Below are positions 5,731 to 30,199 of a stretch of DNA of 64,000 nt, piece by piece; position 1 is the stretch's first letter, and each line of letters starts with the position of its first letter. The translations under genes were made by a program, and so were the position numbers. The DNA is from Rhizophagus irregularis (Eukaryota; Glomeromycota; Glomeromycetes; Glomerales; Glomeraceae), in the NCBI RefSeq assembly GCF_026210795.1, contig NC_089434.1:62001-126000 (forward strand), in the 5' to 3' direction. Below the pieces are notes generated by a model. That model did no database searches, was not told where the DNA came from, and saw only the letters and a program-made list of their open reading frames with translations.

Positions 5731-5759
5731 TCAATCGTCCATTTCAAGATAATCATCGT

Positions 5760-6289: not shown

Positions 6290-6400
6290 ATAGTTAGAAA
6301 TAGTTAGAAATAGTTAGAAATAGTTAGTAAATAAATTAAAAATAGGTAGAAATAGTTAGTAAAATTAAAAATAGTCAGAAATGGTAAAATTAAAAATAAT
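6290..6400. repeat. Short tandem repeat in an X1 intron
   Basis: About eight copies of ATAGTTAGAA-like units lie in the last intron of X1, which explains why this intron is longer (about 170 nt) than its neighbours. Confidence 0.7.
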
Positions 6401-8170: not shown

Positions 8171-8199
8171 ATTCGACAAATATTATATCGAAATAAGAC

Positions 8200-8520
8200 T
8201 TACTCGCATATTTCACGTATTTTAATTTTACTGTCTTCATCCTCCTCACCCTCCTCACTTCTGATATTATTTATTTTGACAGAGGATGCTAACATCAGAG
8301 CACTGCTGAACGAATTCACTTCTTGATTATTTAATAAAGTTCCCATTTCTGAATTATTAAGTAGGGATAGTTGAGTTTCTAATATATCGATCTTTTGTTG
8401 TAGAAAATCATTTGCTTCTTTCTGCATACTCATGATTTCCGTTAACGCACGATTACAGTTTTCTAATTCTACAACCTTTTTCCGAGATTCTATATCCCTG
8501 ATCGTTGAGTGATTCGACAT
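8200..8520 (-). CDS. Small coiled-coil protein, possible first exon
   Basis: 106 codons from MSNHSTIRD. Residues about 10-60 show heptad-like leucine/isoleucine spacing with charged residues between (VVELENCNRALTEIMSM and DFLQQKIDILETQLSLL), so a coiled coil is likely. The C-terminus is acidic (SEEGEEDEDSK). A good donor (GTAAGT) overlaps the last codons, so this may be the first exon of a longer gene, but I found no convincing next exon before X1, 470 bp downstream on the same strand. I do not recognise the family. Confidence 0.45.
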   Translation of the reverse strand: MSNHSTIRDIESRKKVVELENCNRALTEIMSMQKEANDFLQQKIDILETQLSLLNNSEMGTLLNNQEVNSFSSALMLASSVKINNIRSEEGEEDEDSKIKIREICE

Positions 8521-10105
8521 TATTTGTAAAGAGTCATTTACTCGCGTTAAATTCTCATTCTTTCGTATCAGATTTTGCCTAATGTATTTAAGGCTACTAT
8601 GTTTATGCTTTCAGCCCATTATAACCCCTAGGATTAAAATAAAAATCAATTTATAACCTTTGACTATTTATAAAAAAATGAGATAAAAAAAAAATGCAGA
8701 TATAAAAACCGAATATTGTGATATTCGTACGAAAGACCAATAACTATAAGAAAAAACCGGTATGAATATATAAAATAATTGTTAAGAATGTTTATTATTA
8801 TATTAAAGCGGAATCGGTTTATATAAAAGAAAATCGATAACCGTAAAAAAGAAACTGACTTGAATGTAATCTTTGTTTTCACCGACCTATTAAAATTGAA
8901 GGATATGCATTAAATTTTCAAGTAAATTTGTTCCATTTGATCATTATCGGTATACCTGTAATAAATTTTTGAAATTACAATCCACTTTCAAAAAAACTTT
9001 CAAACGTAAGAGATGACCGGCAGAAACATATCCGCCGATTTGCGGAATTGAGGCCTTTAGTCATTTAGTTTATGATAAATAAAAATGATAAAAATATTCC
9101 AAAAACCATTATGGAAATGATCAGATGGACAATACTATCACGTGCATATAACATTTGTAATAAGCGTATGTGAAATTTTCAAAAAACTCATATATTTTGG
9201 CATCCTATTATTTAAACCAAACAAAATTATGCTTAATTGAAAGCTCTATTTGAGTAGAATCTACTAATAATATTTTCATAAAAATAAATTTTTATATTAG
9301 TTAAGTTATTAATTTTTGTAATATATTATTTATTATTTAAAAAAAATTATTTTTTCTGTAACTTGTGATTCAAATATAGTAAAATTATACCAAAATAAAG
9401 CTTTAAATAAGATAATTCTAATGATATTAAAATAAACCTATTATTGACAAGGAGTTAAAGAGATCACATAAGTTTCCCACTATCAGATTCTTGAATAAAA
9501 TTTGCCTAAGTTTAAAATAAATGATAAAACTTTTTATTACTTAAAATTCTTTAAAATATGATATAAAATAAACAAATAAATAAACAAATAAATCATACCA
9601 AGTTTTGCTTTAAGTTCTAGGCTTTTACACTTTTTTACAACTTTACTACACGTTAAAAACCTTTAGAAACAAATAAAAATAGTTACTTATTATATTTAAT
9701 GTACAAATAACATGAAAGACTTTTCTATATCATAAACCCATCTAAACGTTAAAAACCCATCTTCTTTCGCGTTGTTTATTTGTGTTTATAGATAGTATAT
9801 TATTTATTTCAAAAGTAAAAGTTCCATTTTTTTTTATCAGTCCGCAAAAGATGATCATGTAACGCAATTAAAATTAGGGGTTGTGAAACAAATATCACGT
9901 TTTTCAAAATTAAATTGTTAAATCCTTAATTTAGGCCAGTTCCGAAGATCAGCGCATATGAGCTGATGAACTTATTTATCATGAGTTTTTTTATAATCGG
10001 CACGATTTTTATTGCTGCTTACAGACTAATTACTCATGCATGATTACCTTATAAGAAAATCAATCAAATAAATTATATTGGAACTTTTTTATTGTAACTT
10101 TAATG
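8521..10105. other. Gene-free AT-rich spacer
   Basis: About 1.6 kb without a supported ORF in either direction. Short open frames here have no recognisable composition. Confidence 0.5.
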
Positions 10106-10300
10106 CTGCAGTGGCGTATTGGTTAGGGAATGTAATACCTGGATTATATTTCTGAGTTCAGTACCTGCTGTATGCATTACTTTCCAGAATATTTGACCAT
10201 GACCGTGAGTTCTCTGGACCGGTTGGCTTGGATGCCGTGAGTCCTTTGGACCGGCCCGAGTCTTGATATTCTGATCTTTTTTGTATATTAACAACAGTCG
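10106..10300 (+). mobile_element. tRNA-derived SINE candidate
   Basis: A box-like TGGCGTATTGG (10112-10122) followed by GTTAG, and a B box-like GTTCAGTACC (about 10156-10165), have spacing close to a tRNA internal promoter. The stretch is far richer in GC than its surroundings and holds an internal duplication around CCGTGAGTYCTYTGGACCGG. It does not fold into a full tRNA that I can see. It ends in a T-rich stretch near 10275. Confidence 0.45.
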
Positions 10301-10477
10301 AAGGGTTATTTAACTATCATTTTAGTTACTTGAATTGAAATAGTCGTGTAACTAATTAATTACTCAAAATAAAAATATAATACATCGTACACTTCCATTA
10401 AATGTTAAAGTAAATCTGCATATTTAAAATTTATATTTTCACCAAACAATAGAATTCTATTATACCAGTAAAAATTC

Positions 10478-13400
10478 TCACAAATGAAACTGCCTATTTA
10501 TTAGGATTACAGCATTATATGTAATAGGATTCTTTTTGCCAATTACAAATTCACCAGATACAAAGCGACTATATAGGTAATGAATTGGAATTAAACAATC
10601 TCGCTCTATCTCATAAAATTCATTTCGCAAAAGTTCAATATTTGAGCTTTTTTCATCACTATCAATACTTGTATAAAATCGGGTTTTCTGGTTTGGCGCC
10701 AGTTTATACCATTTAACAAATACTAATCGATGTGTTTTAAGTTCACCCGAAATTCTCACAGTATGTTCAAAATAATACTGTACCTGACCTGGAAATAAGT
10801 CGGTCGTTTCATTGTTTTGGATAAATTTCGCCAAAACATTTGCGTTTTTCAGGTATCAGGGTGCCATTGCCGATCCAAACACTTCTGCTGAGATCCTAAC
10901 CCGCCCAAATTGATCAACCATATTTGGCACAACTATTGCATCTCTTGAACTGGTTGATGTTGACTCAGCAATTGTTACAAATTGCAAGTCGTAAGCAATA
11001 TTATAATATTCAGTTAGGATTTGATAAATATCATCAGGCAAGGCAACCCGATTTTTACATGGCGTAAGCATTTCTCCAGGAAATGGTTCGCTACCGACAA
11101 TCATTTTATCAACTTCTTGGAAGAATACCTTTCTAAATTGATACAGCTCAGTGTAATTAAAATTATCGTAAGCTGCTAAACTTCCGGAAGTTGATCGTAG
11201 TTGAATTAATTTTAAAGCTTCAACAAGCTTAACATTATTTGATTGAACGGATACAAGGTTATCAAGTCTCCAATTTCGCATTATAATTCGTAAAAGTTTG
11301 GGTTCAATTTGACGATTACTATTGGGAAAAGAGCCTATTGATATATTATTTAATAAATTATTAGCAAGCTTAAATGATTAAACAGTTCACAAAATACCTA
11401 CCGAGGATACCGTTCATTCTTTCAAAGGAAAAACACCAGAAAGAATATAATGGACCATAATCCTGGCAATAATCGGCAATATGAAGATACAAATGGAGGT
11501 TTGGGGTTATTCTTTCCGGACCATAATTTTCTTCAATTAACGTTGCAACTTTGAGCAAACGTTCGTGAGCTTCGTTCAATATGTCACAGTCAATAATTCG
11601 ATAAACTAGCAGAGAACAAGCTCTAACGAAATTCCCCAAAATTTGTCGATCTGGTTCAGCGAGCAAATCCCACATCAACGGGATAGCATAAATTAGAACA
11701 AACGTTTTATATTGGTCGGCCATAAATCCGGAAAATCCTTTTCCAGTTGTGATTTTATTTGGAATACGCCCCAAATCCGCGGGTATTTGTATGTATTTTG
11801 CTCGCTTTTCCATTTTTTCTAGATCTTGTTTCGTGATCTTGTTGCCATCGATCCATAATTTTTTAATTATCCAATGGGCTATTCCGAGGAACAAACAGTG
11901 CATTGGATCTACGACAAGGTACCTTATCGGATTAAAATACGGCAATCGAAGCAGTTCGGACCATCTAACATGGGTTGAACTCACATGACGTTTTCTTTCC
12001 TCCTCAGATTTACACAGTCTCCAAAGCTCAGCATTCCGTCAATGTTCATCCAAATCTCTTTCTACAAACCAGTCAACCATATCATCAAAGCCGCCAAAAT
12101 TTGACTTATTTCCATTTCCATTTGAATTTGCAGTTTTATAACACCTATGGCAGCTCACTGATGCCTGATATGTGACTGCGAGTTCCTCGCCGCAGGAATG
12201 TCATTCGAACAGCATATTAATGCCAATCGGATATTTTTTTCAGCGGCGGGAATCTCAATCCCATCCCAGAACTCTAATAACTCATCAACAATCGGAGCGA
12301 GATAATGGTTAATTTTGTGTAACTTAACCTCGCTTGGTCCCGGTAGTAGACCAAGCGTCAACATATTTTCTTTTTTAAATCTAATTTCACGCGGTAGGTT
12401 ACAAATAACCCCATAAATAGCCCCACAGCTGTATACAGATGACTCGAAAGGCTGAAACCAATCGAGATTAATCATAATTCCCAAGTGGGAATCTGCAGTC
12501 TCCGGTGTAAAAAATGGGACGTCTGAAGTATCTGGAAAAGTTTTCCAGATTTTACCGTCATAAATATCTGCTAACATACCATTATTTACATCCTGATTGG
12601 TCCATTTTCATAGTTGTTGCTTGAATTCTGGTCTCTGGTACAAATTGTTTATCTGTATTTTCAAATTCGGCAATGGAAATAACAATTTGGGGCGTCTTTT
12701 ATTTCCATTACCATGCGGTACTTGCACAGTTAATTCCATTCCGCAAAATTTTTCCTTCGGTTTCATTGGAAATTCTATATGCGTACATTTAAATCCTTCA
12801 TCCGCAACAACATCAGCTATATTATATAATGTATTACAGCTTAGACATACTGCGTAAGTCATAGATTGGTTGTCGATTCGTAATAACTTAGTCGCAGTGT
12901 ATAAAGAAGATGGGAAATCTTTGAATCTCGTCTGATTAGCATCCATTAATACTTGATGAAAAAACTTTATTAAAGAATCTAGTGCAACATCCGGCAAGCA
13001 AAATCTTGCTTGATATTTGAATATCCATGTTAATATCCAAGAATCTGCAATATTAACATTTGTGTTGGGATATGCAAATTCTGAATCATTTTCAGGCGCA
13101 GCAAATTGTTCAACAGGATCGTCGTCCAAATCCATATTGTCTTCTGGAGAAATGTCACCTTCATATTCATATTCATTAATCGGTTCATTGCTTTCCTTAT
13201 TGGTTTCCGGTTCCCGAAACTGGTCTTGTCTACGCCTTTTTTGAGGGACAAAACCGGCAAAATCTGATTCATAATTATTATTAAATGATGTTGACTCTTC
13301 TTGTCCGGTCATTTCTTTTGATCTTGATGATCCTTCTACGATTGGACTATGATAGACGGTATGTGCTGGCTTAATCCGATTGTTTCTGGGAAAAAGGTGA

Positions 13401-13530
13401 CAAATCCGGAAACGCTAGACGCTAAATGACGCTCTAAATCTAGATGTCTTTTTCTGGTTCTTTCATCAACATATTTGCCATTGCATTCCTTGCAATCACA
13501 TGATACTTTATATCTAAGTTTTGTAGACAT
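10478..13530 (-). pseudogene. Tnp2-like (CACTA/EnSpm) transposase, copy 1
   Basis: It starts MSTKLRYKVSCDCKECNG, an N-terminal Cys motif (C-x-C-x2-C). Then come an acidic region, FCLPDVALDSLIKFFHQVL, DWFQPF (about 12460), LGLLPGPSEVKLHKINHYL, VVDPMHCLFLGIAHWIIKK (about 11900), FERMNGILG, and a C-terminal domain with GQVQYYFEHTVR. These blocks match 'transposase domain' proteins of the Tnp2 type; the candidate acidic residues are D in DWFQPF, D in VVDPMH and E in FERMNG (inference). One intron, 11401-11335, phase 1 after NGILG, is shared with both other copies. Damage: a frame change near 13340-13390, TGA at 12608-12610, a frame change near 12170, a TGA around 12040, and TGA at 10856-10858. 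X2 is its head-to-head neighbour. Confidence 0.8.
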
Positions 13531-14228
13531 GATTATGTTTTAGTAAGATCGAAGCGTTCAATGAAAAATTTGAGAATTTCTACGTATGTATCTTATAGCC
13601 TATTTATGAATGCCAAAATCGACGAATAAAGAGCTTTTAATATGTACAATTTCATATATTAGTCCGGTCTGAATAGACTATTATTGCTTAGTGGCATGTG
13701 AAGATAGGAAATTGTACGGGGTATTAATGAAAAATTAATATTAATCGGGTTTTACTATAGCGAAACCAGAAAATTATCACGCGGTCTGTCCGTTTTGGTA
13801 ATTCGCTCAAATGATTTAGTTGCAAAAATATCGGACTTGACCCTTCTGGTGACATCATCTTGACCCTTATTAAAATATATTATGCGGGTCAGCACCGCGT
13901 GGTGGGTTAAGAACGATACCGACATTCGCGAATTAATTATATTGCAGAGCGAAACGTTGTTCTTTTTTACCATATTATAAGTCTTTTTTTTTTTTGGTCT
14001 AAAATTTTCAGTTCTTTCAGTCCTTTATAGTAAGTAAAGTTATAAAATCTTGTTGTTGGATTTCTGCAACGACCGAAGTCAAAAGCCCGAAGGCTTCTGA
14101 GCCCTCTACCAACAAGGCTTCCTAATAGATAAAGAACCGGACCTTTTTTATCCCAGAGAACCTCGGAGGCTAACCGATACATAACTTTCTCTTTTTTTTT
14201 CAACATAACTTTCAATAGAGTTTACAAA
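13531..14228. promoter_or_regulatory. Shared 5' spacer between transposase copy 1 and X2
   Basis: Divergent spacer of about 700 bp between the ATG of the transposase (13530) and the ATG of X2 (14229). The equivalent spacer of the second pair is 313 bp. GC content rises at about 13770-13900 and 14040-14170, which may be an inserted repeat. I could not identify a shared promoter element by eye. Confidence 0.35.
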
Positions 14229-17200
14229 ATGGGAAATAAAAAGCTTCGTAAGGAAGAGTAAGTAACCCTTCGTGTCAGTTAACTTATCAAAAATTGAGAT
14301 ATATTTATAAATTTATACAAAAAGCAGCCTGGAATCAGAAATCTTATACGAATCTAGTTCGGAATCAGAATCAAAATCGGAATCGGAACTAGGTACATTT
14401 AGTATGTCGTATAATTCTGCTTATTGTGTTCTAAACATTCTGATTCACTGCTTAATCATCAGGAAATTATATAGTGCGAAAAGTTGCGCAAGTTTACACA
14501 TCATAATATTTCGTAAGCTTCCAGACCCGCCGCAAGTTTGCGTAAGCGTAATATTTTGTAACTTTTTAAAATATTTCGAAATATTACGATATGCAAAGCT
14601 TCGTAATTTTACGATTTGTAATATTCCGTAATTTTGCGGTTCGCAATATTTCGTAATTTTACATATTATTTCGTAAGTTTTCAGACCCGCCGCAAGTTTG
14701 CGTAAGCGTAATATTTTGTAACTTTTTAAAATATTTCGAAATATTACTGTATGCAAGGCTTCGTAATTTTACGATTCGTAATATTCCGTAATTTTACTGC
14801 GTAATACTTCGCAACTTTTTAAAATATTTCGAAATTCTATGATGCGTAATGTTCCATAATTTGACGATTCGTAATATTCTGTGATTTTACACAACTTAAT
14901 ATTTCGTAATATTTCAAAATATTTCGATAAATAATACTTCATTTTCTGTACTATAAGTTTATATAATGTATGTTTTATTAGATATAATCATAAAAAATTA
15001 CAAGTATTTATTAATATATACAGAATACATAAAAGTAAAAAAAAGAAAGAGTAGAGTAACAATATTATTAGACGTAAAAAGAAGAGAAACAGCTATAGTA
15101 ACGTTAGTATTAGATATAAAGATAAAAGAAATATTGTTATTATTGTTAGTATTAAGGTAAAAAGAGTTAAAGAAACAGTAAAAGGAGTAAAAGAAACATG
15201 GATATTATCGTTAGTATTAAAGTACAAGTAAAAAGAAATAAAGGAAACGTAGATAGTATTGTTAGTATTACGACATAAAGTAACAAAGAGGTAAAAAAAA
15301 ACGCGTTAATATTAAAATAATTAGTATTAATAAATAAATATTTCTATACCTGCAAAGTAATTGAACAAAAGAATAAAGAAATAAAGAGAAAGGAAAAAAT
15401 AAACATGTTGTTAGTATTGTTAGTATCGTTAGTATTAAAGTACAAGTAAAAAGGAATAAAGGAAACATGGATATTATTGTTAGTATTACGATACAAAATA
15501 ACAAAGAGGTAAAAAAAAATGAAAATAATTAGTATTAATAAACAAATATTTCTATACCTGCAAAGCAATAAATTATGAAATATATGTAAATATATTGTAT
15601 ATAATTAAAGAAATAATAGAAAGAAGAGACAAAAAAATTAAAAATATTGAACAAAAGAATAAAGAAATAAGAAACAAAAATAAATAAGACAAAAACGCGT
15701 GCATAATTAAATGATTAAATGATTAAATCACATGCAAGGATCAGCCTAATTTTGATTGGCCAGAAAATACGATATCATAAAATTACATTTTAAAAAATTA
15801 TATATTGTACAGCGGGTGTGACATAAATAAATCGTGACTGAAATTTGTGTTCAATTTGTGTTTAATTTGTGTTGATAATTCTGGTAAAAAATTATTAATT
15901 TTGGCCAAATTTCGTTAAATTTGTTAAATTTGTGTTGAGTTTGTGTTGAATTTGTGTTGCGTAATTTTTTATTTATCACAAGGGGATGATATTTAGTAAT
16001 TGCATGTAACGACGTACAAGATTTTTTTTTATGATTTTTTTAAGAAATGTACGCAAAATATTTAATCAGAATATAATTGTTTTATTTTTAAATATGATAT
16101 ATTGATGATTTTTTTTTAAAAAAAAAATTGATTTTTTTAAAATTCAATAGAATGTGCTAATAATAAATTGGTTTATTTTTAAATATAATATATTGATATT
16201 TATATTTAAATAACCAAAACATGTACATGATTTTTAATTATTTTTAATTGAAATCAAACTAAGATTTTTTTTTTAAAAAAAATTAAAATAAATTAAGTGA
16301 TTTATATTTATATTTAGAATCATGATATTTATATTTAGATAATCCATATCCGCATGAGATTTAATTAATATGTTTAATGATGAAAAGTCTAATAAATTAA
16401 ATTTTAATTGAAATGAGAAATAAAATCAAACCAAAGAGGTATTGTTCAAATTTTATTTAAAGTGACATTTTACGACTTTCTTTCAAATTTTTACTCATCC
16501 CAAAATCAAATTACTAATAATGCCTCGCCACACACGTCGTCGTTCCCACTATAACGTCCATTGGAACTGGGCTATGATGGACGAACTTGTTGACATACGC
16601 CGAGACAGAAACCGCGCCTACCACAATATTAATGGTAGAAGCCGCCAAGATTTTTGGGACTCTGTTGCCAATAGGTTCATATGACTAATATCTATAATTT
16701 CTTTAAGAAAAGAATTTAAATTCAAATTAACCAATCCATTTAATTGAATCAGAATAAATAGAATATTTCGAACGAGGGTTTCCAGGCAACAGTGCAGCCA
16801 AAAGTGGAGGAACCTCGTCAGGGATTACCATGTAAGTAAATAAATAACATTACATTCATATAAATTAAATGTATTTACCGAATATTCAAACTGATTTTGA
16901 TATTTAGAACTATGTCCTTTATCGTAATGGTAACCCTGGGTGGCGGCTGTGAACGCGTACCGGCGCAAGATATTATCGCGAATTTAGAACGAGATTTTGG
17001 GAGAGGCCGGGTAATTATACTATAATAAAATTTATAATTAATATTTACGTTCATGTTTTAAATTTGATAAATTTGATCAATTTTAGTCACGCGTGACGAT
17101 CGTAGGGCAAGGAGAAACTTACCTACGTATCGTAGAAGAAGATAATTATTTTTATTTTTTTATTATTTATTAAGTGAGTAGCTAGGCCCAGTCCGTACCA

Positions 17201-19107
17201 AATATCGGCTGGAGACTCACGTTTTTTTTGGGCTGTGACTGATACTGACGTCCACGCCGTACAGCCTGGGTACTATTTTATAAAATAGTAGCGAACAAGT
17301 ATTAAATGTGTATTTTTTTTATTAAGTTATAATAAAAATTAGAATTTACTTTAATTTTTAACATAAAAATTGTAAATAATAAAAAATTCGTAAATAAAAA
17401 TAAATTTGCTTTCCCAAACTTAAAAAAAAAGGTGTTTATATAAAAGAAAAGGTGTTTATATTATTTTTGATTATTCAATAGTATCACATGCCCTTGTATA
17501 CGTTCTACTGCATATGCAGTTTACAATCTTGTAAATTTTCGAAATATTTCAACCGTAATATTACGCAGGTTTACAGTTTCGTAAATTTTCGAAATATTTC
17601 AACCGTAATATTACGCAGGTTTACAGTTTCGTAAATTTGCAGAATATTTTGACCGTAATATTACGCAGGTTTACAGTTTCGTAAATTTTCGAAATATTTT
17701 AACCGTAATATTACGCAGGTTTACAGTTTCGTAAATTTTCGAAATATTTTAACCGTAATATTACGCAGGTTTACAGTTTCGTAAATTTTCGAAATATTTC
17801 AACCGTAATATTACGCAGGTTTACAGTTTCGTAAATTTTCGAAATATTTCAACCGTAATATTACGCAGGTTTACAGTTTCGTAAATTTGCAGAATATTTT
17901 GACCGTAATATTGCGTAAATCTTACGATATTGAAAACTCACGTAATATTTTAACCGTAATATCACATAAATCTTACGAAATTGTAAACTTACGTAATATT
18001 TTGAAATTTTTCGAAATATTATGCCATAAACTTTCGTAAACTTACAAAATCGTAAACTTACGCAATTTTTCGCGCTATAAAATTTCCTGATGATGGTCAA
18101 TATACAATTGATAGAATTAAACCCGGAAGGCACTCAAATTCTTGATTCTGATTCTAGGCCAAGAGATGGCAAGAAAAGAAAAAAGTCAAAAGAACGACGA
18201 TACCAACATGTATCTGAAATGCCCAAAGATTTGAGAGAAGCATTAAGGGTAAACAAAACTTTCGCTGTATTTTTTATTTTTATAAATTTACTGATAATAA
18301 TATATTTTTAGAGAGATCTATTCTGGAATCAGGCAAGAATGCCTCAGGAAACTCAATTAGATATCGAAAAAACGTTCGAGCTTCAAAAGGATCTTGTAGT
18401 TAAAACGATTGTGCCAAATTTAATGAAAACATTGGATCTTGACACCTACACCATAGGGGAAGGTGTCATATACGAGATGATCTATCAGCGGCACCGCCAC
18501 AAAAGGGACAATCTTTGGGTCAAAAATAAATCAGAAAATGATATAAAGAAAGAAACAGGATGGAAACACCAAAATTCACGACGATCGGAGGTAAATATAA
18601 ATGTTATATTTTACTAATCATCCTAATCATCATTATTTATTTACGAGTTTTTTATAAAATAGAAAAGAAAAAAAAGATCAAAGACGATCAACAATTTAAA
18701 AAAAATTAATGATCCGTTGATTGAAAAGTTCAGTAACGAAGAATTGCGGCCAATAATTACAGAAAACGGCTATCATAGCCCGGAAATTTCAGAAAGCGAG
18801 GACGAGCGAAACATAATCGTTGTGCGTAACTTGCGATAGCGCTCCAGCACTGTAAGTGAATTTATTGAAATGGGTTACATATAACTGGCATATGCTAATT
18901 CATTTTAAAACAAAGCTGCGCAGATTTTTGTACTATGTTGATAGTAATACAACAAAAGGCGACAAAAAGCGTGAACGGGTGTACAAGCCTAGTGAGTATG
19001 TTAAAGAAACGGCGCCGAATAGCGCGCCTAGTTGGACGAAATCAGGCTACGATGGGCCATTAAAAAATCCAGTTGCCAAGGCGATTAGTAAATTACAAAA
19101 TAAATGA
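14229..19107 (+). CDS. Family X copy 2 (X2), six exons, one intron invaded by an element
   Basis: Exons: 14229-14257, 14328-14392, 18115-18248, 18312-18590 (279 nt), 18663-18851, 18916-19107; all phases agree and give 295 codons. It begins MGNKKLRKE (compare MSNKK in X1), then a Ser/Glu-rich stretch, a basic region, MPKDLREALR, RDLFWNQARMPQE, MIYQRHRHKRDN, KRKKRSKTINNLKK, NGYHSPEISESEDE, LRRFLYYVD and NSAPSWTKSGYDG. A single TAG at 18837-18839 stands where X1 has Trp (KWRSDT). The third exon is separated from the second by a 3.6 kb TIR element; without it the intron would be about 79 nt, a normal size here. The function is unknown; the basic and acidic blocks suit a nucleic-acid-binding accessory protein (inference). 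Confidence 0.65.
14470..14945. repeat. Left subterminal repeats of the 3.6 kb element
   Basis: A unit of about 162 bp occurs twice (around 14511 and 14673), each with CAGACCCGCCGCAAGTTTGC and TAACTTTTTAAAATATTTCG. The rest is made of CGTAATATTTCG / TTTACGATTCGTAAT variants. Confidence 0.75.
15190..15570. repeat. Direct duplication inside the 3.6 kb element
   Basis: Two copies about 215 bp apart share TTAGTATTAAAGTACAAGTA, AACAAAGAGGTAAAAAAAA and ATATTTCTATACCTGCAAAG. The region up to 16500 continues without a gene: repeated AATTTGTGTT words at 15840-15960, and TTTAAATATRATATATTGAT twice at about 16090 and 16175. Confidence 0.7.
16520..17145 (+). CDS. Myb/SANT-like DNA-binding protein inside the 3.6 kb element
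   Basis: Exons 16520-16674, 16762-16831, 16908-17010 and 17087-17145 join in phase to 128 codons. The start is MPRHTRRRSHYN; residues 15-75 form a Myb/SANT domain (WNWAMMDELVDIRRDRN, SRQDFWDSVANR, SRQQCSQKWRNLVRDY). ARYYREFRTRFWERP follows, then a short Arg-rich tail. The paralogue at 2.9-3.8 kb has the same order (FWNSVAN, QCQTKF, TRFWEKP). TGA at 16950-16952 interrupts exon 3 in otherwise good sequence. As the only gene in this TIR element it could be an accessory DNA-binding protein, as in PIF/Harbinger elements; that is inference, and no partner transposase is present. Confidence 0.65.
17521..17925. repeat. 50-bp tandem repeat, eight units
   Basis: The units begin every 50 bp from 17521 (TTACAGTTTCGTAAATTTTC, GAAATATTTC, AACCGTAATATTACGCAGGT) and are nearly identical; diverged units continue to about 18060. 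They form the right subterminal region of the 3.6 kb element and are built from the same TTTCGTAA/CGTAATATT words as the left one. Confidence 0.9.
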
Positions 19108-19260
19108 AATATGTTAGTAAATTTAATAAATATAAATAAATATATCAGTAAATTTAATAAATATATCAGTAAATTTAATAAATATCAGTAAATTTAATAA
19201 ATATATCAGTAAATATAATGCTTGAGTCAAACAGATTGAAAAGAAATTAAAGACTGAGAC
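19108..19260. repeat. Short tandem repeat after X2
   Basis: Five imperfect copies of ATATCAGTAAATTTAATAAAT lie directly 3' of the X2 stop codon. Confidence 0.75.
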
Positions 19261-20150
19261 AACCTTTTTGGTTCAATTTTCACAATACCTAATTTTTTTA
19301 TTTTATTTCATCAACTGACAATCATACCGATATACCGATATATCAAGCTAATCTAGCTGCGGATTACCAGCCAGATTATTTTTGACATTAATTTAGAAAT
19401 CGACATATATACGCAAAGTTGCTAAATTTTGTAAATTTCACGAGTCGGGCTAACTAATAAATCGGTATCCGTATTTGCAAATATATTGTTATAATACGCA
19501 AATAGTCCAATTTGATTAGTGATCTGGATCATTGAAATTTAATCTGATTGGCCAGATCTCTGTTTGATTACGATAAATATGGAAATAAGCACATTTTGTT
19601 TACAACAAAACCTTTTTACCTATTTGCGAATTTTTCTTTTTTTTGCCGTTTGCCTATTTGCGAATTTTTCTTCTTTTGCCGTTTTGCCTATTTGCGAATT
19701 TTTCTTATACCATCTTACGAATGCGTTGCCTATTTTTTGTTTATTTTTGCTTATTATATCACCGTTTACTTTCTACGCCCATAATATATGGTGTGAAATT
19801 ATTGGACTCGTTCACTGACAATGGTTGACATACTGGTATGTCAGTTACTTTCAGCTGTATGAGTTTATAACAAATTAATAATAATAAGCACTTTCACATT
19901 CAACAATCGTGAACGGGAATATTCCAATTTTATTCTGGAGACAGATACGGAAACTGTTATTTATCGCTAACCTTCACTATTTCCTTTTTGTAAAACAGGT
20001 TTCATTGAGTTGTGTTTCAAATATCCTCCTGTTTTTATAGGTGCGAGAACATGCCGATTTTTTGATGAATTTAATACTTCTTTTGCTCCTCACACTCAAT
20101 CAAAGTGAAATATAGAACGACAATGCATATTTCTTTCGATTTTCATTTTA
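19261..20150. other. Gene-free region with a triplicated 30-bp word
   Basis: No gene supported. At 19619-19706 the word CCTATTTGCGAATTTTTCTT occurs three times in tandem with TTTTGCCGTTT linkers; the overlapping open frames there only reflect this repeat. Confidence 0.55.
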
Positions 20151-20159
20151 CTGAGTGTA

Positions 20160-22270
20160 ACTTTAAAAATGGTAAGCGAATATTTGTACTGATCTTCACT
20201 TCTAACGAAATAAACTTTATTCGTTTTTAGCGATCAGAAATGAAATGTATATATACCGATTTTGATAAACTTCATTTAGAGGCAAGCCTGACTGATGGGT
20301 CTAATGGTATTATGGTAAGTAATAATAGGTATACTTTTTTTTGATATAACATTCTAGTTATGTATTTTTTTTCATGCATATTTTTACATATAGTACGCTG
20401 TGGTCTGGAACCACCCGAGATTTTTGACTACCTAGGGATGAAGTTGTAAGGTGCTTGTACCTGATAGGCTAGCCTCCTCTAATCTAGGGTCTCATTAATC
20501 GGGAGACGAGGTGGTTCCTAAGTACCTTCCACATCAAGGGCGGACATTTTTTGTAAAATCACACGTTGGGAATACTATCTCGTAATGAATACTTCAAAGA
20601 CAAAAGGAGCGAAAAGCCTTCAGTTTGTTGTTAGCGGTGAAGATGTAGTGGTCGTGCCATTTAATGGTTGCGTTGATTGATTGATATACTCATATTTTGT
20701 AGGATTAGCTAATACATGAGATTTCTCGAAAATCAGAAATGAACACTGCCGATTTTCACCCTACTGACATATATTTTTAAATTCGTTTTCTGCAATCAGA
20801 AACGAAGTGTATCTACCGGTGTTGAAAAACTTTAAAGGTGAGTTCATTCCTAGCACAATTCGTTTAGATAATTAACGTGACGGTATCTTTAAATTGTTCC
20901 TACTTTCAGCAATCGGCAAACTCATCTCTGATATCAGTAACTATGACCAGTTTTATGGTGGGCTAATGGAGTAAAATAGGTATGCTTTTTTTTTGATATA
21001 TAACATAGTTATGTGTATTTTTTCATGTATATCAAAAGGAGTGAAAAGCCTTCAGTTTGCTAGCGGTGAAGATGTAATAATGATCGTGCCATTTAATGGT
21101 TGCGTTGATTGATTGATTAACGTATGCCTTACTCATATTTTGTAGGATTAGCTAATACATGAGATTTCTCGAAAATCGGAAATGAACACTGCCGATTTTC
21201 ACCCTACCGACATATATTTTTAAATTCATTTTCTTCAATCAGAAGCGAAGTGTAACTACCGGTTTTGACGAACTTTAAAGGTGAGTTCATTCCTAGCACA
21301 ATTCGTTTAGATAATTAACGTGACGGTATCTTTAAATTACTCCTACTTTCAGCAATCGGCAAACTTGATTTCTGATATCAGTAACTATGACCAGTTTTAT
21401 GGTGGGCTAATGGTACAAATAGGTATGCTTTTTTTTTTGATATATAACATAGTTATGTGTATTTTTTCATGTATATCAAAGGGAGCGAAAAGTCTACAGT
21501 TTGTTAGCGGTGAAGATGTAGTGGTCGTGCCATTTGATGGTTGCGTTGATTGATTGATTAACGTACACCTTACTACTCATATTTTATTTGTAAGATTAGC
21601 TAATACGCGAGATTTCTTGAAAAATCAAAAACACTGCCAATTCTCACCCTACTGACATATTTTCTGCGATCAATAGCAAATTGTGTATTTACCGATTTTG
21701 ACGAACTTTATTAAAGGTGAGTTCATTCTTAGCACAATTCGTTTGAGATATTTAACGTGTCAATAATTAACGTTTCAGTCAGATCTAAATTGCTCCTACT
21801 TTCAGCAATTGGATAACTCGATTTCTGACGAAATGTAGAAGTACTGTGCCGAGGAGCGAAAATTAATTATTGCATTTGTCAGCGGTTCTTTATTAAATAG
21901 TTGCTCATGTTGATTAATCGATTAATGTACGCCCTTATTCATATTCTAATTCGCAAGATTTCTCAAAAAATCAGAAATGAACCGTATTTTATTTCATTTT
22001 TAGAAACGAATTTGTATATCTATCGATTTTGACGAATTTCATTCATTCGATAATTAACATGATGGTCTTTAAGCTGTTCCTACTTTCAGTAATCGGAAAA
22101 CTCGATTTCTGACGGACATTCGTTAGGAGTTTGGTAAGCAAGATTTCATCACCATTTATTTCTAATAACTTGTTTGTTCGTTTAATGTATAACATTTATT
22201 AATTCTTTATTTTTAAATTTGTTCCTGTTAGCAATCAGAACAATCAGAAACAAAAACGTACCGATTTTCG
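20160..22270. repeat. Tandem array of 350-450 bp units with splice-like borders
   Basis: Four to five diverged units. Landmarks recur at about 20703, 21145 and 21594: TAGGATTAGCTAATACATGA, ACTGCCGATTTTCACCCTAC, AAAGGTGAGTTCATTCCTAG, CCTACTTTCAGCAATCGGCA and AGCGGTGAAGATGTAGTGGT. Each unit holds a good donor (GGTGAGTT) and, about 80-100 bp later, a good acceptor (CTACTTTCAG), as a duplicated exon-intron module would. No long frame runs through; the best is 21320-21553, with VSGEDVVVVPFDGCVD. I do not recognise the encoded segments. Confidence 0.7.
20395..20606. mobile_element. Insertion in one repeat unit, type unknown
   Basis: This stretch of about 200 bp is present only in the first unit of the array and is much richer in GC. 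It contains an inverted pair, GGAACCACC (20408) against GGTGGTTCC (20510). It has no ORF; it may be a small MITE or SINE. Confidence 0.4.
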
Positions 22271-22496
22271 CTTAATCATATTACTTTTATTATGATTGTA
22301 TACATTGATATAAGTTCCCATTTGAAATAAATTATATTTACAACTATGATTGTACAATCAAATTTTTGAATATATTGTAAATTGTAATTAATAAAGCGCA
22401 TGTAGGCTGGAATTAAAACCATTGTTTTTAATAATTTGTAATTAATAATGCGTAAATAAATATATAATAAATAAAATAGGTGCATCATAAACATTT

Positions 22497-22874
22497 TATA
22501 AAACCGATTTTACCAATCGGCTATTACAAATCAGCTATTAATCAGTCATCAATACATTATCAATCGGTCATTAATACGCTACCAATCGGTCATTAATCAG
22601 ATACTGCCCGATTGCTGTCGGATTAAGCAAATCCAATAAGTCATCAATCAGTTATCAATTGACCATTAATTGACCATCGTTCGGCCATCAATTGACTCTC
22701 AATTTGTCACCAATCGGGCAGCCCGGATGATAGCCGGTTGTTGTCGGATTTTGGCGGAAATCAACTATCAATCGGGCAGCCCAATTGAAAAAATCAGTTA
22801 CCAACCAGGCATCAATCGGATACCCGATTGATGCCTGGTTGGTGACTGATTTGGCATCTTTCGACCTGTGTGGT
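22497..22874. mobile_element. Element rich in CCAATCGGT motifs, copy B
   Basis: More than a dozen variants of ATCAATCGGTCATTAAT or their complement occur, with a near-palindrome at 22800-22850 (ACCAACCAGGCATCAATCGG). The right end TTTCGACCTGTGTGG (22859-22873) is the inverse of the left end of copy A. It abuts the 3' end of transposase copy 2. No ORF, no target duplication seen. Confidence 0.55.
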
Positions 22875-22882
22875 GTGGCATA

Positions 22883-25800
22883 CTACAAGTTAAATCTTCT
22901 ATTCAAAGGTATAATCGACAAATATTTTTGTTTTCCTACCATAATATTTCTAAATTTTGTAGCTCGACATAATATCCTATGAACCGCTAACAGGGAATCA
23001 CAATTTTCTTGAAAGTATTCAGCTTTCCATAATTCGGTATTTGATATTTCTGGCTCCATAAAACTATGTTTAAACCGAATACTAGAAGAAGGTGCAGGTT
23101 TATACCACTTGACATATGCTAGGAGGTGAGTTTTCGTTCCTTCTGGAAATCTAAGGGCATGCTCAAAATAATATTGGACTTCACCCGGATAAGTGTCAAC
23201 TGAATCATCATTAGCTGCTTTCCATTTTGCAAATATATTCGCATTTTTTTCATGGTGACCAGAAATCATAGATCCAAATATTTTGGCGCCAATTTGTAGT
23301 CTTGCATGCTAATTCATATGCAAATCCATAAATCCTAACACATCTTCTTTTTCCCTTTCATATAATATTGCATACCATTCACATAGAAATTCTCGCAACT
23401 CCAAAGGCATAACGACATTGATATATGATGGGTTAAGCATTTGGCCAGGTAATGGTTCAGTGCCATATATTTTGAAAATTATAGACGTATTATGTCTCAT
23501 GAATAGAAAATGCTGCAGTTTCTCCCTTTCTGCTGTGATTGCTAAACTTTCTACAGCTTTTTTTGGTACAAGAAGATGGAGAGATTCATCTAGAAGGCCA
23601 GATGTCCATTTACATGATAAGTGATAATCCACCAAAGTGTTTTTAAGAACAATTTTCATTAATTCAGGTTCTATTTATCGGTTACTATTAGAATATGATC
23701 CTAAATAACAGGAATTTTTTTAATAAAAGTACTAAAGACAATTGAAAGACACTGAAGTAAATTTACCTATATATCCATTAAGTCTTTCAAACGGGAAAAG
23801 CCAAAAACTATATATAGGACCATAATCACGACAGCAATCAGGGATATGAAGTGCAAGATGTATATTGCTTGTTATAAATTCTGGTCCATATATATATTCT
23901 ATAAGGTAGGCCATATCTTTTAACCTCTCTTGCGCCTCCTTCAAATCATTATCTGTAATAAATCTTGCTACTAAAAAATTACAAGCTCGAACAAAATGCC
24001 CTAAGATCTTTCTATCATTATCATCTAGCATATCCCATAATATAGATGTAGAATAAATCATAATAAAGGTCTTCCATTGATCAGCAGTTAAGTTAGAAAA
24101 CCCATCATTTCCGATTGCAATTTTTGGAGGAATTCTACCAATGTCAGAAGGTAAATCAATATTATCCATTCTGTTTTGTGCTACACGAAGTTGTTCTATA
24201 GTTAATTTTTTTGGTTTACAAAAATGGATTTGATTATCCATTTTGCAACACCGAGGAAAAGACAATGCATAGGATCCACTACAGCAAATCGTATAGGATC
24301 CATGTATGGTAGGCGAAGCACTTCAGTCCATCTTATACCATATACTTTAAAATGTGCTTCTCTGGAGGACTTTGAGTTACATTGCAACCATTCATGAGCA
24401 TATTGCCTATGTAATAAAAGATCTGCAGGCTTTGTTACCCATTCATTATAGTCTTGCATTCTTCTGTAATGAGTTTTTCTAAATTTCCCGCTATAAGTGG
24501 TATATTTGTCACATCTATAGCATTTCATTACTGCAGATCTATGACCAAATAACTTTCGTGTAGCTGGAGTATCAGACGATCCAACAATTAACGCAACTTT
24601 TTTTTCTAAACCATTGGAAAATTGGTGAGTTTTTGGTACTTTCCACCCCTTCCAAAGTTCTAATAACTCATCTACAATAGAAGCTAGATAATGATTAATG
24701 CGTTCCAACCCTGCCTCTTTTGGTCCTGGTAAGAAACCCAAATATATAATATTTTCAGGCTTATTCCTTTCTGACCTTAGAAGATTACAAATAGACGCAT
24801 AAATAGCGCCAGTACTATGCTGCGTGTAGGAGAATGGTTGGAACCAATCAAGATTAAGGAGAAGACCTAGATAGGTTGTGGCAGTCTCTGTTGTAAAAAA
24901 GGTACTACCATCAAATGGAAAATTTTTCCATACCTTACTATCGTAAATATCTGAATAGATATTATTTTTGTTTCTTTGAGTCCCTGATAATTTTAACATG
25001 TTCTCAAAATCTGGTCGTTGATATAAAATGCTCAATTGCTGACGAATGTTTGGCTTAAGATAAAGCATGCGAGGTACCGCAATTGTTGCATTTTTATTTT
25101 TTTTGAGAATGGAAAGTGGATTATTGCATTAGTGATTACGACTTGATATTGGATTATTTGAATATTCTTTATACGGGCAATTCATTATAGTAACTTTTCC
25201 TTCTTCCTTATATGCAATAATATCTTTAACATTATGCAATTTATGGCAATCGGTACATGCAGCTAATTGCATTTTCGGTTGAAAAATGTTTAACCATATT
25301 TTTGCCATATATAATAAGGTAGGAAAATTTTCAAATTGCAACTTATTAAAGCGCATAAGAATTATATGAAAAAATTTTATTAAGGATTTAAGTGCAATAT
25401 CAGGCAATCGAAATCTTTGTTGAAATTTAAATAGCCATATTATAATCTCAGTATTAATAGAATCACTTAAGCTTTCCACTATAAATGCTTCTTCATTGTC
25501 ATTGTCAATCTTAGGAGATGCGAAAAAATCTTCTACATCATCATTCTCCTCTCATTCATCCACATCATCATTCTCTTCCTCATCCATATTATCTACATCA
25601 TCATTCTCCTCTCCTTCATTCACATCATCATTCTCTTTCCCATCCATATTATTTACATCATCATTCTTCTCTCCCTCATTCACATCATCATTCTTTTCCT
25701 CATCCATATTATTTACATCATCATTCTCTTCCCCCTCATTTATATTATCTACATTATAATTCTCACCAAAATAATTGATTTCATCATTATTTTCATTAAT

Positions 25801-26262
25801 TGTAGATGCTGGAATACGAAAACATAAAGGTTTTGATGAAAATAATGTTATATTTTCTTCAATATATTGGAAAGAGGGACCAGGATGGGAAGAGTCCTGA
25901 TTCGAACTAGATGTACCGGAGTAATTATTTCTTTTTCGCTTTTTTGATATATTCAATTTTATTTCTGTATTTATATATGTATTATTAACAGATGATGTTT
26001 TTTTCTTTCTTATCATGATGGTATTTTCCTGATTTTTTCTAAAATCTTTTGATCTCGATTTTCACAAACTATCATCATACGTATGTTTCTCTTGAGTGCG
26101 AAAATCAACTTCTGCACCTTTGCAACGAGCACAATTGCAAATATACAAATACTTTTTTTTGGGCTTTATTAAATCAGCCACAAAGGTTTCAGAGGTTTCA
26201 ACTTTACGTTTTTTATTACTCTTTATTAATTCAGATACAGAGTTACATTTTTTATTACTCAT
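22883..26262 (-). pseudogene. Tnp2-like (CACTA/EnSpm) transposase, copy 2
   Basis: It starts MSNKKCNSVSELIKSNKKRK; the Cys motif ICNCARCKGAEVD corresponds to copy 1. It continues with acidic repeats (25552-25745), FRLPDIALKSLIKFFHIIL, DWFQPFSYTQHSTGAIYASI, LGFLPGPKEAGLERINHYL, CYRCDKYT, VVDPMHCLFLGVAKWIIK (about 24260), IPDCCRDYGPIYSFWLF, FERLNGYIG, one phase-1 intron (23766-23701), and a C-terminal EVQYYFEHALRF domain. It is better preserved than copy 1. Damage: a stop at 26065-26067 with frame change, TGA at 25552-25554, TAA at 25129-25131, a -1 frame change at an A7 run (24206-24212), TAA at 23675-23677 where copy 1 has Gln, and TAG at 23309-23311. X3 starts 313 bp away in the opposite direction. 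Confidence 0.85.
25552..25745. repeat. 60-bp coding repeat, acidic 20-residue units
   Basis: Three and a half units encode ENDDVNNMDEEENDDVNEGE-like blocks in transposase copy 2. The DNA is pyrimidine-rich on the plus strand (CATCATCATTCTC), so the plus-strand open frames here are shadows. Confidence 0.85.
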
Positions 26263-26575
26263 TTTTATTAAAATGTATAAAATATATTTTTTATTCTATC
26301 ACTTTTAATAGTTAGTAATCAAGACGTTCAGAAACGAGCTTTTATTAATCCTTATCATACAAAAGAATTGCACAAGAATTTTATGAGCGCGTTACTTTTA
26401 CCTGGTGAGAATTGTGCAAACGCGTTGCTAACTCTGAGCCTTGATCTGCATCCTGAAATTTCCAAAATCATTATAAATTTGCACACAATCAACTTTTCTT
26501 GCATTCTGAAATCTCTACTTTATATGGGATTTTTTTATTTTACAAAATAACAAAAAGATTTTATACTTCGTAACA
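26263..26575. promoter_or_regulatory. Shared 5' spacer between transposase copy 2 and X3
   Basis: 313 bp between two divergent ATG codons, short enough for a bidirectional promoter. I see no clear TATA pair or operator; AT-rich runs flank a segment with higher GC at about 26390-26460. Confidence 0.4.
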
Positions 26576-27765
26576 ATGAATAGTGATAATGTATCATCTA
26601 GTGATGAATCATCGTCATCATCCTCCTTCTCCTCCTCCTTCTTCTCCTTTTCTTCTTTTTCTTTTTTTTCTAAAAGTTCTTATAACATAATAAAAGCAAG
26701 TATTTAATTATTTTATATATTATTTCTGCTTTTATCCTATTTACATTTATCTATTATTTTACAGAAAGAAGTGTTTATTTGGAGCGACTTCAAGCTAAAA
26801 GACGTATACAGTATTAACTATGAGCTCACATGGGCTGAGCAAAAAGATAATATAATCACCAAGTTGCTTCCACCACTTTACAAACTTGTAAATAAAAAAT
26901 ATAAAGTCTCAAATAGTGATTTATTAAAGATGTTATATGGACGTTGGTGATCTCGCCATCACGTTAGTAATATTAGAAAGCAAGGAAAGCCCAAATAAAA
27001 CGTAACAAAAGAAGAGCAATGAAGAATTCAAGGATGCAAGATGTAAATTATTTAATTAACAGAAGCTATTAAATTTAGTTTTTTTTTTAAATTAATTATA
27101 TTGTGCTTTATAATTAACATTGTTAGAAAAAAAAGAATAATAAACGTGGCTAATTACCTAATACAAAACAAAGATAAGTACATTTGCCGATATCCTGAAA
27201 AGGATCTAGTTCAAATTTTAAAAGATTCAGGCTACCATTCCAAAGAATGGGAGAAAACTGACGAAGATGATGAAGATGATGAAAATGATGAAGAAGAAGT
27301 AGTCACAAAAAAAAATTTGATATATATTTATGAAAGATGTTGGACATCTCCTGCTGTATGTATATTTTATTATTTTTTATCAAAGTATAAACACTAATTT
27401 ATAGTTTAATTTCTTTATTTAAGCTTCAACGTTTATTACATGATCGTATTGATCCAATGGTAGAGTTATTAAGGAAAAAACCACCAAACTTAAAATGTAA
27501 AAGAGTTCTAGACAAAACAGAAATAGCTAGTGTGCCACCTGCTGGCGCACCAAGCTGGTGTTTGAATAGAAAAGCACTTGAAAAATTCAACCGTTTAACC
27601 AAAAATATCCCGGTTTATGATTATGATACTGATGAAAGCATTATTCAAGACAACAATGGTGCCGATGATGATGTTGATAATAATGTCGTAAATAACAAAA
27701 ATAACAACAAAAGGAAAAAAAAGAAAAATAAATCTAAATCAAAAAATAAAAAAGCAAAAAAATAA
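26576..27765 (+). pseudogene. Family X copy 3 (X3)
   Basis: Likely exons: 26576-about 26702 (MNSDNVSSSDESSSS, a Ser/Phe-rich low-complexity start), 26765-27042 (278 nt, from KEVFIWSDFKLKD, with the same exon borders as X1 and X2 but one base short), 27127-27355 (SGYHSKEWEKTDEDDEDD, the YHSPE-like box) and 27424-27765 (LQRLLHDRIDPMVELL, GAPSWCLNRKALEKF, acidic stretch, Lys/Asn-rich tail). The missing base and the stops following YGRW in the second exon show decay. MPKDLREALR is not visible. It is a diverged third copy of X1/X2, head to head with transposase copy 2. Function unknown. Confidence 0.6.
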
Positions 27766-29277
27766 ATTTTACAATTATTACACTTTTGCCTAAATAGGTT
27801 TATCGTAAAAAATACTAATCAGACTTTAATAAAAATCAGAATTCAAACATTTTCATTTAATTTTTTTAATAATTGATTGATTAAATTAAAAATATCATGG
27901 TTTGATAAAGCTATAGATTACAGTTTATTTTTTATTAATAAACAAGTTACGGTACTGATTACTTTATTACAGTAACAATTTAATTACGAATAAGGTATTT
28001 AATAAGATATCAAAAACTGATTAATAAAATTTTCTATATTAACATACGATAAATTAGATTAATGAGCTAAATACGATAATATTATTTTTTCAAAAAAATT
28101 AAAATGAAAATATACACAAATTTTTGTTTTTGGTATGTAAGTCAAATTAAATTACTATATGCTTAAATCATAACTCATAACCCAAAGTTGAGAATTAACC
28201 GGGTACCTTGCTTTAGATTTAGCGACACTTCCCAAGTCAGATGAGGTGCCACAGGTACGCTTTAAGAAAACTCGCTATGATAATAAGGATAAGTATATTT
28301 GAAAATATCATTTATGAATGAACATAGGATACGATGAATAATCTCAAATAGAAAAATAAAAAATAAAAAAATAAAATAAAATAAAAATAAAAATATAAAA
28401 AATAAAATAAAATAAAATAAATATTTTCAATTAGACAAAGCATCCTCGTTCCTTCCTGGAATTCTTATTTGACTAAATTATTATTGTTTGTAATTTGATC
28501 CATTTGAATCCACCATAAATTGCCAGACAGGGCGAACCCTTATTAGACAATTATAGCTTCATCACCAAATGGCTGCGATGTGTTTAATGATATGGCAACC
28601 TGTTTAATTCATTTTTAAATGAGCAAACGTGGCCATAAAACTCATTAAAAAGGTAGGCTACAGAGTGCAATGCAACCTACCTAACCTAATAAGTAGGTCT
28701 AAGGGTTAGGGAATAAAATATACCCTAAACCCACTCAGTTGGTATGGAAATAAAAGTTTACAAATAGAAGTTTTAGACTGTGCCTGATGACAAAATGGGT
28801 GAGGTGCAATCAGGACTTTTTCCTCTAATTCAGCCCGGAATTATAGAGGCAACATTGTTATCGTACAAAGCACATCGACGAAAACGTCTCTTAAAGAAAT
28901 TAATCAATAAAGAGTATACTTGGGCAATAGCTGATCTTTATCATCACCCTATAAACTCCAAAAGGACAGTGATCAGCACAGGTATTTTGGCTTACGTATT
29001 TCTTTAAGGATTAATTAAATTGAAAGATAGGATCCAAATTCAATATGACTGAATCGATCGCCTCCGGTTATCAAACTTCCATCAGAAGTGATCGCTAGAA
29101 TCAAAGATACCAATAATCACCCTTATCAGTAACGATCAAACTAAAGATGTTGGAGAAATAAAATCCGTCATTTATATGGAATTAGTTTGTATTACAATTT
29201 TATTACGATTTGGGTAAAAAAAATATCTCCTTAAAATTTATTTTTTTTCAGGTATCCTGGCTATATGGAAAGATTCC
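27766..29277. other. Gene-free region with one short unassigned ORF
   Basis: AT-rich, with an (AAATA)n run at 28345-28425. An open frame at 28780-29007 (75 aa, with AHRRKRLLKKLINKEYTWAI) has a plausible basic composition but no recognised family. Short TTAGGG/CCCTAA words near 28695-28735 are isolated. Confidence 0.4.
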
Positions 29278-29285
29278 TAATATGG

Positions 29286-29709
29286 AGGACCGTTAAAGCA
29301 GGGTAGAATCACGTGACTTTCGAAATTTTTCTTTTTTTTAAATAAAACTCTTTATTATATATAAAACCTTCCAAATAAACTTATACTAAGTGCATTTTGA
29401 CCTGTTCTGCAAGTTTACTTAGAGCACAAAATAAGGTTTAGAACACCGTTTTCGATTTATTCAACTTTTTCAATTTCGTTAAAATTGATCTATCCTTTTT
29501 TGGGTATGATCAGCAAAATTCGTTTGCTCATATGTAAAGTCAAAAACATTGTTCTTTTTCCACTTTTTCTCCCTAAGTAAACTTGTGGAGCAGGCCGAAA
29601 TACACTTATTTAACGATTTTTAAGTTTACTTTAATTTTAGTTTATAAAAAATTTATCAAATCATAATAATTTTAAATCACGTGATTCTACCCCGCTTTAA
29701 CGGGCCCCC
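29286..29709. mobile_element. hAT-type MITE with 8-bp target duplication (CACGTGA family)
   Basis: TAATATGG occurs on both sides (29278-29285 and 29710-29717). The termini are inverted: AGGACCGTTAAAGCAGGGTA then GAATCACGTGA on the left, against the complement ending CGGGCCCCC on the right. 424 bp, no ORF. The interior (CTGCAAGTTTACTTAG, TCATATGTAAAGTCAAAAAC, CAGGCCGAAATACACTTATT) recurs in the 56.94 kb element. The 8-bp duplication fits hAT elements. Confidence 0.85.
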
Positions 29710-29717
29710 TAATATGG

Positions 29718-30199
29718 TAATAGTACAATACACTTTATACGCCATTTTGCAAATTCAGTGTAATAGTTTACAAAGAAAAAAGGGGAACGTATTTATTTTT
29801 TTGCCATGAGAAATTTAATTACAATAAGTGGATTTCAGAAAATCGCGGTAATTTGAATAATTTGTATATGCTTTTGATAACAGGTTTGAAGTTTAGGTAT
29901 TCTCTGGCCGCACTCTTGTATTACTATGATCACTGAGAGTTGGCTTGCTTATATAATAATCTTATCATTCAATATTTTCTAAAAAAGTAAATAAACATCA
30001 TCTATTTATAAGTATTCATGATTTGGAAAAACTCCGTATGAAGTTGAATCAAGCATTCCATAGCAATTATCTTTTTTCGTACACTGTATTACATTTTTAC
30101 AAAGTATAAAGCGTACAAAGCCAATACCAAATAGGCAGAAATCAGTAGCTGTTTTCTATACTACGATAATATTAAATAAACACACAAATTTTTTTAAAG
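29718..30199. other. Intergenic, no gene seen
   Basis: AT-rich; I see no ORF or repeat that I can support. Confidence 0.4.

Follow-up and report, generated by a model that had tools for sequence, protein, structure and literature searches.

A 64,000-nucleotide stretch of the Rhizophagus irregularis genome (contig 6, positions 62001-126000; hereafter the window) carries two pairs of divergently placed genes, each of which joins a gene for a tnp2-type transposase to a gene for a member of a protein family that we call X. An initial annotation of the window had described these two head-to-head pairs as diverged from one another and had asked whether they represent a two-gene transposon; the coordinates and strands of all four genes were confirmed, B transposases are about 57% identical to that of A over query residues 13 to 205, and both pairs turned out to be the cores of CACTA (EnSpm) elements, here named A and B, whose ends and target duplications were located. 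The two-gene anatomy of these elements is, in our assessment, beyond reasonable doubt, and the account as a whole, i.e., that of nested CACTA elements in which a transposase is accompanied by a TnpA-like X protein, appears probable. The decay of the gene copies, the presence of a further X gene (X1) in the same element as X2, the nesting of the two elements, and a Myb/SANT gene in B had escaped the initial annotation. All searches, counts, and trees refer to a single R. irregularis genome (146.7 Mb, 32 contigs), positions are those of the window unless a contig is named, and papers are cited by PubMed Central identifier for the parts of their text that were available to us.

Two nested elements at the locus

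Element A is bounded by CACAGGTCGAAA at 4471 and TTTCGACCTGTG at 22870, with TGG flanking each boundary (Table 1). The TGG flanks, together with the uninterrupted state of B copies at this point, place the insertion of A within B, 12 bp beyond the stop codon of transposase 2. In five of five B copies, alignment to the window stops at 4470 and resumes at 22871 with a 3-bp overlap in the copy, and the contig-27 copy of B presents the empty A site letter for letter, with the same flanks and a single TGG. Since A sits inside B, the possibility that both pairs belong to one large block or arose by tandem duplication was rejected.

Element A measures 18,400 bp in the window, 13,868 bp in contig 27, and 13,792 bp in contig 31; the latter two copies are 97.4% identical over 13.6 kb, and the contig-27 copy aligns to window positions 4466-9026, 9961-14456, and 18093-22591. 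Four other A copies are flanked by the duplications TAG, TTA, ATA, and TAG. Within A, X1, a coiled-coil-like open reading frame (ORF; no Pfam match for the contig-27 copy), and the transposase gene lie on one strand, and X2 faces the transposase across a spacer of 0.7 kb. X1-type and X2-type matches occur together, 6.9 to 7.9 kb apart, in at least 11 other places. A 0.93-kb insert in A, at about 9027-9960, has imperfect inverted ends near CATATCCGCC and is missing from the contig-27 copy.

For element B, no match to the first 3.77 kb and left end was found in window positions 1-2575. Copies of B start with CACAGGTCAAAA, and the three complete ones (13,220, 13,064, and 13,168 bp) are flanked by the duplications TGT, ACA, and TAT, respectively. 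The contig-27 (TGT) and contig-8 (TAT) copies are 99.8 to 99.96% identical where aligned, and the different flanks and duplications of these near-identical copies point to recent movement of B. Transposase 2 and X3 are separated by 0.3 kb in the window copy; the Myb/SANT ORF of B matches PF13837 in the contig-27 copy (3.8e-10), and a Myb-type ORF (2.8e-6) is present in a related family on contig 12 as well. A 0.42-kb insert in B (29286-29708), which is missing from the five B copies compared, has inverted ends around GGACCGTTAAAGCAGGGTAGAATCACGTGA and resembles a miniature inverted-repeat transposable element.

The window copies are decayed. Both transposases contain frameshifts and stops, X2 carries a stop and a 3.6-kb insert, and X3 carries a stop; the contig-27 copy of transposase 2 retains an 854-aa open frame and a 278-aa one, and the window copy is broken further. 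The insert in X2 has ends of the same type as PlavakaB (end type according to PMC12730594); it contains arrays of internal repeats and, near 16520, a short ORF that looks Myb-like by eye and has no Pfam match, and no transposase ORF was seen in 14457-18092.

Table 1. Features of elements A and B in the window (ORF, open reading frame; TSD, target-site duplication)
Feature	Position	Strand	Basis
Element A, CACTA-type transposon, both ends	4471..22870		alignment with copy, ends, TSD
Left terminal inverted repeat of A, CACAGGTCGAAA	4471..4482	+	
Right terminal inverted repeat of A	22859..22870	-	
Target duplication TGG, left copy	4468..4470		empty site in contig-27 B copy; unbroken alignment of five B copies
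Target duplication TGG, right copy	22871..22873		same five-copy alignment and contig-27 empty site
Left subterminal array of A, ATCGG core, CCAATCGG/CCGATTGA	4471..4970		counted on contig-27 A copy
Right subterminal array of A	22371..22870		counted on contig-27 A copy
X1, second X-family gene of A, several exons	5857..7727	-	X homology; borders by eye
Coiled-coil-like ORF of A	8200..8610	-	by eye
Transposase 1 (tnp2 type), frame broken several times	10478..13530	-	
X2, head-to-head partner of transposase 1, interrupted by insert	14229..19107	+	exon borders by eye
Insert in X2 (3,636 bp), CATCAGGAAATT inverted ends, 2-bp AT duplication	14457..18092		
Left remnant of element B	2576..4470		
Myb/SANT ORF of element B	3458..3838	-	ORF; PF13837 match in contig-27 copy
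Right part of element B, terminating in TTTTTTGACCTGTG	22871..30434		
Transposase 2 (tnp2 type)	22883..26262	-	
X3, head-to-head partner of transposase 2, one in-frame stop	26576..27765	+	exon borders by eye
Right terminal inverted repeat of B	30423..30434	-	

Element ends and genome-wide pairing of X with transposase

Both transposases matched the Pfam family Transposase_21/tnp2 (44.2 bits for transposase 1 and 34.9 bits for transposase 2; cut-off 28.6 bits), and transposase 2 also matched DUF4218 (30.3 bits; cut-off 27 bits). The DDE motifs, for which the order was taken from PMC12730594 and the residues were assigned in this analysis, were sought in nine transposase copies; the first D was found in nine, the second D in seven, CxxC in nine, HxxxH in seven, and E in nine, the motifs taking the forms LDWFQPF or IDWFQPF, [SCN]D-x-PA[AT]R, CxxC, HxxxH, and [FY]ER[ML]NG. 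The second D is missing from two A copies (N in its place in one, out of frame in the other) and HxxxH from the transposases of families C4 and N_C6. These motifs follow the arrangement of a DDE transposase with CxxC and HxxxH between the second D and E.

Terminal inverted repeats, which had not been found by eye in the initial annotation, were located around both genes in 14 copies from four families, with both ends in the form CACAGGTC or CACTGGTC and with transposase and X in between (for 6 of the 14 copies, only the ends were fetched and the inner genes are known from search matches). Matching 3-bp duplications flank 13 of the 14 (five of five copies for A, three of three for B, one of one for C16, and four of five for N); as the C16 element and the contig-23 copy of N had been found by requiring a duplication, 11 of 12 are independent, with a chance expectation of 1 in 64 per copy. 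The exact pentamer CACTA is missing from these ends, the consensus of which is CAC(A/T)GGTC. In three of the seven families fetched (D_C12, D_C4, and N_C6) both ends were not found, and neither were the right ends of the contig-7 A copy and the contig-6 N copy or the left ends of the B copies on contigs 2 and 31. The C16 element (9,882 bp, duplication ATA; contig 16, 4263044-4272925) holds a zinc-knuckle-like ORF and further ORFs beside the pair (by eye). In the smallest two-ended element, on contig 23 (N23; 6,444 bp, CACTGGTC ends, duplication AAT), a transposase and a divergent X are the only genes recognized among ORFs of at least 60 aa.

Across the four families, ATCGG was the 5-mer most enriched at the ends (66 occurrences in the terminal 400 bp versus 93 in all middles, i.e., 9-fold). 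In the two terminal 300-bp stretches together, and on both strands, it occurs 16 times in A, 16 in B, 15 in C16, and 13 in N23, as compared to means of 1.6 to 1.9 and maxima of 5 to 7 in shuffles. The contig-27 copy of A has 10 occurrences in its first 500 bp, 10 in its last 500 bp, and 2.8 per kb in its middle; the density is 0.47 per kb in the window outside A and B, and the ends of the PlavakaB-like insert have none. The flanking bases vary by family (CCAATCGG in A, ATATCGGG in B, TTAATCGG in C16, and GAATCGG in N23, where the longer flanked motif is weak). Since they combine a tnp2 match, CAC..GTG ends, a 3-bp duplication, DDE motifs, and subterminal repeats, A and B can be assigned, by these sequence features, to the CACTA/EnSpm superfamily.

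For the genome-wide counts, the listed X and transposase matches are the best-scoring candidates (150 of 155 PF02992 matches entered the transposase count), and all locus totals are lower bounds; locus positions were transcribed by hand, with one start per locus where there were several exons, and may contain slips. Each X locus was paired with the nearest listed transposase within 7 kb (6 kb in the first count), and shifted positions served as control. In the first count, with X2 and X3 as queries, 81 of 131 listed X loci were head to head with a transposase, 14 were on the same strand (at least 10 of these being X1 of A copies), 3 were tail to tail, and 33 had none, with a mean of 0.48 and a maximum of 3 head-to-head pairs in shifted controls. 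A second count added, as queries, the divergent X proteins of two families without a listed X in the first. Among the 296 X loci then listed, 203 had a listed transposase within 7 kb, with 164 head to head, 20 tail to tail, 18 with X downstream on the same strand, and 1 with X upstream; the shifted controls gave a mean of 1.41 and a maximum of 6 in 300 shifts. Neither of the two scenarios under which the initial annotation would have had to be abandoned, namely, X genes mostly standing alone and a lack of terminal repeats enclosing both genes, applies in this genome. Seen from the 287 listed transposase loci, 165 were head to head with a listed X and 9 were in another arrangement. Head-to-head distances are narrow, with a median of 3.6 kb between match starts and quartiles of 3.0 and 4.5 kb. 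Chance pairing is excluded because 164 of 296 listed loci are head to head versus 1.4 expected, a comparison in which many loci are copies of each other and not independent events.

Seven families were fetched, five chosen for a listed X and two for the absence of one; in each of the seven, X and the transposase are head to head, and in both families of the latter kind X lies on the expected side and strand. In five of five long-frame transposase loci listed without X, the profile also revealed one, again on the side and strand expected; these loci were picked for their long frames rather than at random, and four represent one family by the X tree. Two candidate generalizations were rejected, namely, that X is absent from most transposases (199 of 287 lacked a listed X in the first listing), which was overturned by the two added queries and the five sampled loci, and that X stands beside all tnp2-type genes, as two of two distant loci found by PF02992 alone showed no X in the stretch covered (about 2.4 kb upstream for the one on contig 4). 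The distribution suggests an association of X with a single clade of these transposases.

A second X gene is also seen elsewhere. Another transposase family, whose frames reach 812 aa and which is found on contigs 3, 11, 24, 2, 1, 14, and 15, has a pair of X-type matches, of which one is head to head and the other tail to tail with the transposase (e.g., C3:5786779 and C3:5794512 around C3:5788600); because of this family, the double X is not unique to A.

The X family and its proposed role

X1, X2, and X3 are homologous, with 28% identity between X1 and X2 and 23% between X1 and X3 in one exon. An alignment of seven X sequences from six families, all of them from head-to-head pairs or elements, has 267 columns, of which 12 are invariant, including H-S-x-E, W-R-S, and P-x-W; the other six sequences are only 23 to 46% identical to X2, and all seven are basic, with isoelectric points of 8.9 to 10.0. 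A 16-row X tree contains an A/C4/C16 group and a B/C12 group, matching the 9-row transposase tree; in a 9-row X tree, only B/C12 and the within-family groups were kept at the starred level. X branches are mostly about twice as long as transposase branches. A recent duplication as the origin of X1 and X2 of A was rejected, as X2 joins the X of C4 (85/89, below the starred level) and X1 stands apart in the 16-row tree. Among the open-licence full texts searched, including the available parts of PMC8647823 and PMC12810828, none was found to describe X or to report that fungal CACTA elements have a conserved second gene in divergent orientation.

We propose that the core of these elements is a tnp2-type DDE transposase together with X, read outward from the spacer between the two genes, which would serve as a bidirectional promoter. 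X, a basic and fast-evolving protein, most likely acts as TnpA does in plants; it would bind the ATCGG-core repeats that fill the outer 0.3 to 0.5 kb of the ends, bring the ends together, and recruit the transposase, which would then cut at CAC(A/T)GGTC and give rise to the 3-bp duplication. X would also be required for transposition. We lean, if only slightly, toward this reading of X as a TnpA-like, end-binding partner. More tentatively, and with somewhat less confidence than doubt, X may represent a new family of end-reading proteins that recognize the common ATCGG core, with family-specific flanks, such that helper and arrays co-evolve and cross-mobilization is prevented; if so, the second X in A and in the 812-aa-frame family would offer a means of acquiring or changing specificity.

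A number of observations weigh against an end-binding role or limit its support. Among the seven X sequences, no recognized DNA-binding domain and no credible Pfam match were found (the best candidate for a known domain, PADR1_N, scored 0.0064, below the cut-off, in one of seven members and was rejected), and no sequence relative of X was found in the PDB; structure models of two X exons are weak (predicted local distance difference test scores of 75 and 64) and contain helices only. The transposases have a conserved N-terminal motif of their own, C-x-C-x2-C...H (by eye), and X therefore need not be the sole DNA binder. With regard to the arrays, ATCGG was chosen after the ends had been inspected, element middles also hold 1 to 3.7 copies per kb, and the C16 ends are uneven (3 on the left and 12 on the right in 300 bp). 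In addition, the contig-26 copy of N has unmatched flanks, the deep forks of the 9-row X tree are unresolved, 93 of the 296 listed X loci lack a listed transposase within 7 kb, and 113 of the 287 transposase loci lack a listed X within that distance.

The same lack of a recognized DNA-binding domain would suit a different role, in which X is a regulator or anti-silencing protein that acts outside the transposition complex, through promoter control, demethylation, or a nuclear function; in maize, the promoter of the element is also a target of TnpA (PMC1636069), such that the two roles can be joined. The subterminal arrays in four of four families with known ends nevertheless suggest a reader encoded by the element, and the 6.4-kb element retains X, although neither point is decisive; we regard a purely regulatory X as unlikely, while still taking it seriously. 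That X is passenger cargo, i.e., a captured host gene, seems improbable. Other ORFs are indeed carried, including Myb in B, the zinc-knuckle-like ORF in C16, and the coiled-coil-like ORF in A (the last two by eye), but each of these occurs in one or two families only, as far as could be seen without a systematic search for them. By contrast, X is head to head in all seven families fetched and all five sampled loci, at the narrow spacing described above, and young copies keep it, as indicated by the X of family N, which recurs with identical scores at about ten or more places among the listed matches. Finally, although the same families contribute many of the loci counted, the idea that the pairing is an artefact of a few duplicated blocks can hardly be sustained in view of the divergence of the seven X sequences, all of them in such pairs or elements, and of copies with separate flanks and duplications, such as those of B in contigs 27 and 8.

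The X family and the element structures reported here define ends and duplications exactly and provide a second-gene marker in a repeat-rich genome; they would also make it easier to avoid counting X genes as host orphan genes. Elsewhere in the window, a 623-aa frame on the minus strand (52353-54224) matches YEATS (1.8e-25) and three-helical-bundle (1.1e-23) domains and is probably a host chromatin gene.

Comparison with known two-gene transposons

CMC and Plavaka families have been reported in R. irregularis (PMC11075540). Plavaka elements are likewise CMC-type transposons, with ends of the form TGT..ACA or CATCA..TGATG (PMC12730594), which differ from the ends of A and B in CACAGGTC (CACAG). 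Harbinger-type elements, which pair a DDE transposase with a Myb/SANT protein, also have two genes, with a DNA-binding helper (PMC12730594, Nuwa); unlike that helper, X has no Myb match, and B carries its Myb ORF as a separate, extra gene. Among fungi, Transposase_21 (TRC/CACTA) has been described as present in Glomus intraradices, a rapidly evolving TNPA-like second protein has been proposed for Schistosoma, and terminal repeats could not be characterized outside three animals (PMC1636069); no fungal second protein is named in the available part of that paper. While the superfamily itself was known, the partner family X, its recurrent head-to-head position, and the shared ATCGG core are new here.

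With the plant elements En/Spm (TnpD and TnpA) and Tam1 (TNP2 and TNP1), A and B have in common a tnp2-type transposase, CAC...GTG ends, a 3-bp duplication, subterminal repeats, and a second element protein. In Spm, two proteins are produced from alternatively spliced transcripts of one gene; unlike in Spm, the transposase and X are separate, divergently placed genes. Plant CACTA ends are rich in TnpA sites, TNPA recognizes subterminal repeats, and Spm/En requires both proteins; the similarity between TNPA and TNP1 is low (PMC2613891), which makes the evolution of plant second CACTA proteins hard to follow. The comparison of X with plant TnpA draws on published descriptions and on the Pfam and PDB results. 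Unlike TNPA and TNP1, X forms one homologous family across every family fetched, and a single recognizable partner family, together with readable end arrays in one genome, would make the co-evolution of helper and site directly testable.

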